Shown here piece after piece: positions 37,004 to 40,098 of a stretch of DNA of 64,000 nucleotides. A program made the position numbers and the translations under genes. Below the pieces are notes generated by a model, which was given only the letters and a program-made list of their open reading frames with translations, was not told the DNA's origin and ran no database searches. The first letter of the stretch is position 1. Each line of letters opens with the position of its first letter. The stretch is from an uncultured Pelagibacteraceae bacterium (GTDB lineage Bacteria > Pseudomonadota > Alphaproteobacteria > Pelagibacterales > Pelagibacteraceae), in NCBI GenBank assembly GCA_902599605.1, contig CACKFV010000001.1, forward strand, positions 1-64,000, written 5' to 3'.

Positions 37004-38001
37004 TTTTCTATGCTCTTCTTGATTAAGTGCACCAATAATTTTATATGATCCTCGTTATCATTTAAGCAAGGAATTGTATCAAATCTTTCCCCACCAGACT
37101 CCAAAAAGCTTTCTTTTCCCTGAATAGAAATTTCCTCAAGGGTTTCAACACAATCAGAGGAAAAACCAGGAGAAATTACTAAGATATTTTTTTTTCCCTC
37201 TTTGGGTAAACTTTCCAAAGTTTTATCTGTATAAGGCTGAAGCCATTCTTGTGGACCAAATCTTGATTGAAAAGTTGTCAAAATGGGTATGTCTTTATTA
37301 AACTTTTCTTTAATCAATCTAGAAGTTTTGTGACAATAGCAATGATACGGATCGCCTTTGTCGAAATATTTTTTTGGTATACCGTGATAAGATGCTAATA
37401 TTAAATCTGGTTTCCAATTAATGCTGCTAAGTTTGTTATTTATAGAATTCACAATTGCCTGAATATAAAGTGGTTCAGATTCATAGTGAGGAATAATTTG
37501 AAGACTAGGTTGCCATCTCATTCTCATTAGCGTCCTGTACACTTCATCACAAACTGTAGCTGTTGTTGCTGCTGCATACTGAGGATACAAGGGAAAAATT
37601 ATAATGTTTTCACATCCTCTTTCTTGTAAGTCTAGCATTTTACTTTTTATGCTTGGATTTCCATATCTCATTGCATAATCAATAATTAAGTTTTCACTAG
37701 ATATAATAGATTTCACTTTTTCAGTTTGTTTAATAGTATAATAGCGTAGAGGTGATATATTTTCTTCTTTCATCCATATCTCTTTATATGCTTTGGCTGT
37801 TTTAGAGGGTCTAAAGGTAAGAATAAATAAGTTTAAAATAATTTGCCACAAAAAAGGATTTACTTCAATAACTCGTCTATCTGATAAAAACTCTTTTAAA
37901 TATTTTCTAATATCCCACCATCCTGTGGAGTCTGGTGTTCCAAGATTTATTAATAAAACACCAGTTTTTCCAAAATTTACTTGTGGATGATTACTGTCCA
38001 T
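37000..38001 (-). CDS. hemH: Ferrochelatase
   Basis: Inserts Fe2+ into protoporphyrin IX, the last heme step. The 333-residue protein has VLLINLGTPDSTG, DYAMRYGNPSI, the catalytic-His segment LASYHGIPKKYF, FQSRFGPQEWLQPYT and ISPGFSSDCVETLEEI with the conserved Glu. It overlaps hemE by 11 bases and hemJ by 4, giving a hemE-hemH-hemJ order that is the transcription order. Confidence 0.98.
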   Translation of the reverse strand: MDSNHPQVNFGKTGVLLINLGTPDSTGWWDIRKYLKEFLSDRRVIEVNPFLWQIILNLFILTFRPSKTAKAYKEIWMKEENISPLRYYTIKQTEKVKSIISSENLIIDYAMRYGNPSIKSKMLDLQERGCENIIIFPLYPQYAAATTATVCDEVYRTLMRMRWQPSLQIIPHYESEPLYIQAIVNSINNKLSSINWKPDLILASYHGIPKKYFDKGDPYHCYCHKTSRLIKEKFNKDIPILTTFQSRFGPQEWLQPYTDKTLESLPKEGKKNILVISPGFSSDCVETLEEISIQGKESFLESGGERFDTIPCLNDNEDHIKLLVHLIKKSIEK

Positions 38002-38998
38002 TAAAACTCCTAACTTCGTCTACTAAATATCTTACCATATCCGGATTTGTTTCAGGTAAAACACCATGTCCCAAGTTGAATATATATCTTTTTTTTTCAA
38101 AAGTTTTTAAATATTTTGTCACTTCTTTTTTCACAGCTTCTTTGCTTTGTAGTAAAATTTTTGGGTCAAGACCGCCTTGAATAGGAATATCAATAGTATC
38201 CCTTATAATTAAAGGATTTACATTATAATCAATGCTTATTATATCGGGGTTTACATTATCTACAAATTTTTTGTAACTATTGATGTTTCTTGGAAAACAA
38301 ATCGAGATTGTTTTTTTTTGTTTAATAAAATCTACTAAACTTTTGGTTGGTTTATAGACAAAATATTCTAAGTCTTTTTCTGGGAGAAGTCCGGCCCAAC
38401 TGTCAAATATTTGAATTATAGATGCACCACTTTTAATTTGAGCTTCAATATGTATTTTTAAGAATTCATCTAGCTTCATTAAAATATTATTTATATTTTT
38501 ATCTTTTGGAAAAACACTAAAATTCCCTTCTTTTGGAGACTTTCTATTAAGCATGTATAAAAGAAGAGTCCATGGGGCTCCAACAAAACCTATCATGTCC
38601 TTATTATTTGAGGATAATTTAGTTTTTGTTTGTTTAATTGTTTCATAAACAGGATTTAATTTTTTTAGAAAATTCTCTTTTTTAACATCATTTAATATTT
38701 TAAAATCAATCTTTTCTAAACTAGGTCCAAAATCTTTTTTAAAATTTACACTTTGACCAAGTGCATATGGAACTAAAAGGATATCAGAAAAAACTATAGC
38801 TGCATCAAAATTAAATCTTGTAATTGGTTGAATGGTAATTTCTGAGGCTAATTGAGTATTTAAACATAATTGAATAAAATCCTGATTTTCTTTTCTAATA
38901 AATCTAAATTCTGGCAAGTATCTACCGGCTTGTCTCATTAACCATATAGGTGTCTTTGAAAACTTGTTGTTGATACAGCTTTGTATGAGAGTATTCAT
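37991..38998 (-). CDS. hemE: Uroporphyrinogen decarboxylase
   Basis: Decarboxylates uroporphyrinogen III to coproporphyrinogen III. The 335-residue protein opens with the family signature TPIWLMRQAGRYLPEFR. GFVGAPWTLLLYML, SWAGLLP and the C-terminal FNLGHGVLPETNPD also match. It is the first gene of the leftward heme operon and immediately borders the proposed oriC, as in Caulobacter and Rickettsia. Confidence 0.98.
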   Translation of the reverse strand: MNTLIQSCINNKFSKTPIWLMRQAGRYLPEFRFIRKENQDFIQLCLNTQLASEITIQPITRFNFDAAIVFSDILLVPYALGQSVNFKKDFGPSLEKIDFKILNDVKKENFLKKLNPVYETIKQTKTKLSSNNKDMIGFVGAPWTLLLYMLNRKSPKEGNFSVFPKDKNINNILMKLDEFLKIHIEAQIKSGASIIQIFDSWAGLLPEKDLEYFVYKPTKSLVDFIKQKKTISICFPRNINSYKKFVDNVNPDIISIDYNVNPLIIRDTIDIPIQGGLDPKILLQSKEAVKKEVTKYLKTFEKKRYIFNLGHGVLPETNPDMVRYLVDEVRSFNGQ

Positions 38999-39079
38999 AT
39001 AATTAATTATTATTTATATTATTTGTAGTATGTATTGTTAATAATGGTAATTAATGTTTTTTAACAAGTTTATAACAGT

Positions 39080-39088
39080 TTTTTCACA
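39080..39088 (+). promoter_or_regulatory. Candidate DnaA box
   Basis: TTTTTCACA matches TTWTNCACA and differs from the E. coli consensus TTATCCACA at two positions. It is the only good match I found in the proposed origin interval. Confidence 0.45.
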
Positions 39089-39118
39089 TAAGATTTATTA
39101 AATATACGTTAGAATTCT

Positions 39119-39133
39119 TTAACTTTTAGTTAA
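39119..39133. promoter_or_regulatory. TTAA-N7-TTAA element (CtrA-type pattern)
   Basis: TTAACTTTTAGTTAA matches the alphaproteobacterial CtrA full-site pattern, which overlaps origins in Caulobacter. In DNA this AT-rich the pattern is easily found by chance, and no ctrA gene is in the window. Confidence 0.25.
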
Positions 39134-39276
39134 TTATCATTTTTTAATCTAATAGGTATTATATTTATTAACATGGTTAAAAATGTATATAAATGAGCAC
39201 TTATACATTAAAATCTTTGAATTGAGGTTTTTAGAATTTATGAAGCAATTTATACAAATAATTATACTTTTTATAC

Positions 39277-40098
39277 ATGATTAATACATACGATATATAT
39301 CTTATTTCTGACTCAACTGGAGAAACATTAGAAAGAATATTTCTTGCAATTAAAGCTCAATTTAAAAATTTTAAGTATAAAACTCACTTTTATTCTTTTA
39401 CGCGAACAGAAAATCAAATTTCTAAAATACTTGAAGCCTCGGAGAAGAATAACAACGCTATAGTATTATATACAATAGTTGATAATAAATTAGCTAGACA
39501 TTTATCAAATGAGTGTAGTTCAAAAAATATTCCATGTTTTGGTATTCTAGGGGATTTAATTATTAGTTTTTCAAAACTTCTTGATCAAAAAGCACTTAAT
39601 GTCCCAAGCAGACAGCACATAATGGATGATGAATATTATAAAAAAATTGAAGCGATACAATTTACAATGAACCACGATGATGGTAATTCAGTCGAGGATA
39701 TTGAAAAATCTGATATTATTCTTTTAGGAGTAAGCAGAACAAGCAAAACACCAACTTCAATTTATCTTGCAAATAAAGGAATGAAGATATCAAATATACC
39801 ACTGGTAAATGAAAAATCTGTTCCTGATATATTAAAAGAGAATCCTCAAAGGAAATGTGTTGTTGGTTTGACCGCAGAACCAAGTAGATTGGTAGATTTG
39901 CGTAAAAATAGAATTCAATCTATTAAGGACAATGAAAATACAGAATATACTAATTTAGATATTGTTCAAAAAGAAATGGAAGATGCTCGAAAACTTTTTC
40001 AAAAATATAAATGGCCAAGCATTGATGTAACAAGAAAATCTGTAGAAGAAACAGCTGCTTCAGTTTTGAAAATACATGATATTTTTAACCAAAAATGA
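39277..40098 (+). CDS. ppsR: PEP synthase/pyruvate phosphate dikinase regulatory protein (DUF299)
   Basis: Bifunctional kinase and phosphorylase that switches PEP synthase or pyruvate phosphate dikinase off and on by ADP-dependent phosphorylation. The 273-residue protein starts IYLISDSTGETLERIF and has the nucleotide-binding loop GVSRTSKTPTSIYLANKG followed by NIPLV. It starts directly at the proposed origin and overlaps maf by 4 bases. Which of the two enzymes it regulates cannot be told here. Confidence 0.95.
   Translation: MINTYDIYLISDSTGETLERIFLAIKAQFKNFKYKTHFYSFTRTENQISKILEASEKNNNAIVLYTIVDNKLARHLSNECSSKNIPCFGILGDLIISFSKLLDQKALNVPSRQHIMDDEYYKKIEAIQFTMNHDDGNSVEDIEKSDIILLGVSRTSKTPTSIYLANKGMKISNIPLVNEKSVPDILKENPQRKCVVGLTAEPSRLVDLRKNRIQSIKDNENTEYTNLDIVQKEMEDARKLFQKYKWPSIDVTRKSVEETAASVLKIHDIFNQK

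Follow-up and report, generated by a model that had tools for sequence, protein, structure and literature searches.

Within the window, the 64,000-nucleotide stretch of DNA analysed here, exactly 278 bases (38999-39276) separate the start codons of two divergent genes, hemE on the minus strand, whose start codon ends at 38998, and ppsR on the plus strand, which starts at 39277. NCBIfam assignments for the nine neighbouring genes give rho-hemJ-hemH-hemE to the left and ppsR-maf-aroE-coaE-dnaQ to the right, where the matches of the PpsR-type regulator and the Maf-like protein are clear, with equivalog cut-offs not all reached, and all nine genes are transcribed away from the gap on both sides. 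By an ORF-based count this is by far the longest intergenic gap of the window (next 155 bp, median 0), and its A+T content is 84% compared with ~70% for the window. Searches for Rfam families and tRNAs within the 278-bp gap found none. The first-pass annotation had described a gene-free, AT-rich interval of 278 bases with flanking operons pointing away on both sides, and the coordinates, composition and gap ranking, together with the gene calls and NCBIfam matches, bear out this description. The TTTTTCACA and TTATACA-type elements that it listed were likewise recovered, the former at 39080-39088 and the latter at 39201, 39250 and 39271.

Table 1. Features of the hemE-ppsR region in the window (coordinates of the whole stretch; putative functions are predictions).
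Feature	Position	Strand	Basis
hemE, left boundary gene	37991..38998	-	NCBIfam TIGR01464 above cut-off
Proposed oriC, gap between divergent hemE and ppsR	38999..39276	.	Conserved length and gene order
A+T-only flank beside hemE, candidate strand-opening site	38999..39019	.	Sequence
DnaA-trio-like triplets TAT-TTG-TAG-TAT	39020..39031	+	TA in phase across diverged clusters
DnaA box slot 1, TTATTAACA, inverted	39036..39044	-	Invariant in 19 distinct close relatives
DnaA box slot 2, TTTTTAACA, first of 11-bp tandem array	39058..39066	+	Recurrent slot
DnaA box-like slot 3, TTTATAACA, second of array	39069..39077	+	One mismatch to TTWTNMACA
DnaA box slot 4, TTTTTCACA, third of array	39080..39088	+	Identical in 18/19 close relatives
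DnaA box slot 5, TTATTAACA	39165..39173	+	Slot common to genus
DnaA box-like slot, TTATATACA, inverted	39184..39192	-	Recurrent slot
ppsR / COG1806 (DUF299) gene, right boundary	39277..40098	+	NF003742 above cut-off; PF03618

A scan of the same-genus gaps for enriched 9-mers, made without any DnaA model, returned TTATTCACA, TTATCAACA, TTATTAACA, TTATAAACA and TTTTTCACA among its top words, and these top words are DnaA boxes of the form TTWTNMACA. This form occurs 152 times over 43 representatives, where shuffled sequences give 16.3 (sd 3.7), and four times in the window gap, for which shuffling predicts 0.34 (P ~0.001). The strict TTATNCACA box is absent from the window copy of the gap; over the representatives it was found 29 times with 1.3 expected. 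The boxes recur at defined offsets from the ppsR start, at about -241 (minus), -219, -208, -197, -112, -93 (minus) and -17, with no single genome filling every slot, and those at -219, -208 and -197 form a tandem array with 11-bp spacing that is present in the window (39058, 39069, 39080). Slot 1 is occupied by TTATTCACA, TTATTAACA or a similar word in most same-genus gaps, and among 19 close relatives 18 have either TTATTAACA or TTATCAACA in slot 5; the 9-mer at 39070-39078, overlapping slot 3, is invariant in close relatives. When the 19 distinct close relatives are compared, invariant columns make up 82% of the box positions and 42% of the remaining gap (P ~1e-6). Since the box positions were picked from the window copy, its own match is partly circular, but the constraint seen in the other 18 is free of this circularity. 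The first-pass view of few and weak boxes in a reduced initiation region holds for size, as lengths of >400 bp are reported for the Caulobacter and Rickettsia counterparts (PMC1914354), but not for the boxes, since six near-consensus boxes occupy conserved slots, together with a DnaA-trio-like element. Their weak look comes mainly from box position 6, where this genus has A besides C, and a better description is six near-consensus boxes whose sixth position is relaxed.

Conservation of the gap within the genus extends to its position and size. The order hemE-gap-ppsR was found at all 30 hemE loci of the window genome and 36 same-genus relatives, and in each of 37 additional Pelagibacteraceae records whose two flanks could be read (named genomes scanned by ppsR). 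Gap length lies between 261 and 288 bp in 67/67 same-genus records with both flanks readable, a count of records and not of species because some represent one genome reached twice (L032 and L085, for example, have identical gaps and stem from equally long contigs); the box statistics use the 43 representatives. Outside a few blocks, sequence identity of the gap among same-genus relatives is low. An alignment across relatives, which had been proposed as a check, thus finds position, length and DnaA boxes all conserved. We also observed that the TATAC immediately before the ppsR ATG (39273-39276 in the window) is kept in nearly all same-genus genomes; it may be a promoter, a leader or a last box-like element.

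The inverted box at 39036 is preceded by a 4-nt spacer, GTAT (39032-39035), which separates it from the phased triplets, and the A+T-only flank lies beyond the triplets on the side away from the box. To the left of the inverted box, same-genus gaps carry T at -16, -13, -10 and -7 in 78-98% of cases and A directly after these positions in 56-76%. Among 14 clusters less than 70% identical, 2.64 of 4 triplets start with TA in phase compared with 0.96 (sd 0.23) in shuffles, a value reached by 0 of 2000; the phase was itself found in this alignment, so that the figures describe a strong contrast and do not amount to a blind test. On the triplet strand C hardly occurs (12/820). A DnaA-trio is recognised by triplets that repeat in phase next to a DnaA box, which is the arrangement found here, and together with a DnaA box it makes up the basal unwinding system of Bacillus subtilis and other bacteria (PMC8287927). 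Like that system, the SAR11 element has TAN triplets with a period of 3 next to an inverted DnaA box; unlike it, the window triplets are degenerate and their distance from the box is 4 nt, where 10-13 nt is common. From this likeness we infer that the phased triplets may act as a DnaA-trio-like unwinding element.

A SAR11 sister family in the same order provides a comparison. The ppsR family, PF03618, was searched for in 24 sister-family genomes, 12 of them at least 90% complete, and none was found; in the 20 genomes whose hemE region was read, hemE directly faces maf. The hemE-maf gap nevertheless measures 271-281 bp in 19 of these 20, with the remaining one reading 207 bp after automatic start-codon extension, and it keeps a box-plus-triplet element as well as the length. 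In two sister-family sequences (L062 and L079) TAGTAGTAGTAG stands at the same place as the window triplets, and exact TAG repeats occur only in some sister-family genomes. The gap thus persists after loss of ppsR and is kept independently of that gene. Between the two families HemE is only ~34-39% identical (window 37991-38998 compared with L061-L080), which is little for a core enzyme whose locus is conserved.

The window's own genome is in 33 contigs, and genomic position was assessed in the one closed same-genus genome, G012 (1,343,202 bp). Cumulative GC skew in G012 peaks at 616 kb and is lowest at 1231-1291 kb, according to how it is detrended; maximum and minimum are separated by nearly half the circle, and the hemE-ppsR gap lies inside the minimum, at 1,261,949-1,262,209. 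In no other 280-bp stretch of G012 are there two strict TTATNCACA boxes, and the gap ranks first for TTATNMACA as well. In partial skew profiles of 400 kb each, from G061 and from G037 of the sister family, the minimum falls ~40 kb away from the gap. The skew check advocated in the first-pass annotation therefore points to the gap with a resolution of ~40-60 kb, which supports the region and not the exact base. In G012, a strand-corrected fourfold skew gave a noisy profile whose minimum was no sharper; at window scale the skew follows gene orientation and is not informative, and the raw minimum at 68 kb on the window's own 184-kb contig was attributed to gene orientation and is not counted as support. 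Four relaxed boxes clustered at 1,324.4 kb in G012 were rejected as a candidate, since they are inside coding sequence and not top for the stricter patterns. A 486-bp convergent gap at the G012 GC-skew maximum (618,614-619,099) also carries three TTWTNMACA boxes and is possibly a terminus-region element.

Taken together, anatomy, conservation and genomic position make it very likely that 38999-39276 is the chromosomal oriC of this SAR11 bacterium, with DnaA boxes and probably triplet-led opening. The gap has the features by which hemE-linked origins are recognised, namely hemE and ppsR as bounds, a box cluster beyond chance, raised A+T and, in G012, a skew shift, and the origin proposed in the first-pass annotation is upheld by the conserved gap with its boxes and by the G012 skew minimum. 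A DnaA with intact domain IV and the gene pair shared with Caulobacter also favour it; against it stand the coarse resolution of the skew, the raw minimum at 68 kb in the window's own contig, the lack of a strict TTATNCACA box in the window copy, and searches that found neither an IHF consensus site nor a CtrA orthologue. In the mechanism that we envisage, DnaA would bind about six boxes of the form TTWT-N-(A/C)-ACA, and the inverted box at 39036 with the 11-bp array (39058, 39069, 39080) would probably nucleate a DnaA-ATP filament. This filament could then run onto the T-A-N triplets at 39020-39031 and melt the A+T-only flank beside hemE, which is the presumed unwinding site. The boxes near ppsR (39165, 39184) probably aid assembly or timing, and regulation would proceed without CtrA.

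We consider it improbable that the gap is instead a divergent regulatory region holding the hemE and ppsR promoters, perhaps DnaA-regulated, with the origin elsewhere in the skew-minimum plateau. The divergence of the flanking genes and the conserved TATAC directly before the ppsR start would suit such a region, and the exact origin site is beyond the resolution of the skew, but the median divergent gap in G012 is only 56 bp and no other 280-bp stretch of that genome has two strict boxes. The sister family lacks ppsR and retains both the gap length and the box-plus-triplet element, a persistence that is hard to explain for a ppsR promoter and easy to explain for an origin. In many other bacterial phyla the origin lies at dnaA. 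An origin there, with the hemE gap serving as a DnaA-titration or regulatory site, can be rejected with near certainty from the G012 box windows, since dnaA (1,198.4-1,199.7 kb), although close to the skew plateau's edge and ~63 kb away from the gap, has no box cluster beside it among the top windows, the hemE-ppsR gap ranks first for strict and TTATNMACA boxes alike, and known or predicted alphaproteobacterial origins are at hemE and not at dnaA (PMC1914354).

The oriC reading places the gap, very probably, in the known family of hemE-linked alphaproteobacterial origins, as a member shorter than its known relatives. The Caulobacter origin lies between hemE and COG1806 and the Rickettsia origin is predicted there, and in Wolbachia, where the two genes are separated, the predicted origin stayed with hemE (PMC1914354), a parallel to the SAR11 sister family after ppsR loss. 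The gap shares with Cori of Caulobacter crescentus the boundary genes and their divergent arrangement (PMC1914354), as well as an A+T-rich sequence with several weak DnaA boxes (PMC1914354, PMC4285127). It differs in its length (278 bp compared with >400 bp in Caulobacter), in having TTWTNMACA boxes where Cori has TGATCCACA G-boxes and TCCCCA W-boxes, and in that searches for a CtrA orthologue and an IHF consensus site found neither. The predicted origins of Rickettsia and Wolbachia are likewise hemE-linked and A+T-rich, but as a rule have CtrA and IHF sites and longer gaps, whereas the SAR11 gap has fixed box slots over the whole genus and a phased triplet element.

A search of 61 genomes for a CtrA orthologue found none, the best match to Caulobacter CtrA, for which an approximate query sequence was used, being 35% identical. 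The motif TTAA-N7-TTAA occurs once in the window gap, 24 times against 11.8 expected over the genus representatives and 0 times in the sister family, and the IHF consensus WATCAANNNNTTR, which is of the E. coli type, occurs 0 times in the window gap and 5 times against 3.2 expected over the genus; CtrA- and IHF-type sites in the gap are thus not convincing. As far as sequence indicates, this is apparently a compact alphaproteobacterial origin that would function without CtrA. GcrA has been described as following the CcrM pattern, with SAR11 as an exception (PMC3973325). We found GcrA (PF07750) in 54/61 SAR11 genomes, in contrast with that statement; the window genome's own gcrA match (G000:C5:27891-28371) is in two pieces, split with stop codons.

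SAR11 is among the most abundant cell groups in the ocean. Its growth in nature has been estimated from origin-to-terminus read ratios, and SAR11 metagenomes have a single-origin, single-terminus coverage pattern, without coordinates in the text consulted (PMC9589681). No published SAR11 origin sequence was found among the papers searched, as distinct from databases such as DoriC, which predict origins automatically. A precise, alignable origin in fragmented single-cell genomes would anchor such growth estimates, and a compact, apparently CtrA-free origin makes its DnaA code and unwinding element directly testable.

The DnaA protein itself is present with a complete domain IV, in which the contact residues listed for E. 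coli (PMC5043019, PMC7561715) are kept apart from a conservative change at position 438, as judged with an approximate E. coli domain IV query sequence. Within domain IV, all 15 proteins of the window genus (14 relatives and the window's own) read SNRDHTT and all 16 sister-family proteins read GGRDHTT (proteins G000:C24 (L267) and L197-L226). Position 6 of TTWTNNACA in same-genus gaps is A 105 times, C 47, T 17 and G 2, with 12.9, 3.4, 13.6 and 1.7 expected, so that A and C are each strongly enriched. Strict-form boxes of the sister family (A 7, C 4 at this position) are too few to compare; with a looser pattern only C is enriched there (43 against 11.4 expected; A 25 against 24.9). These patterns raise the tentative and rather doubtful idea that DnaA (GG to SN before RDHTT) and its boxes (A or C at position 6) changed together, giving a CtrA-free origin with a shifted code. 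If true, TTWTNMACA boxes would be missed by standard box searches; A+T drift could also explain the shift at position 6. Most genomes additionally encode a second, shorter DnaA-like protein of ~220 aa, which is probably Hda.
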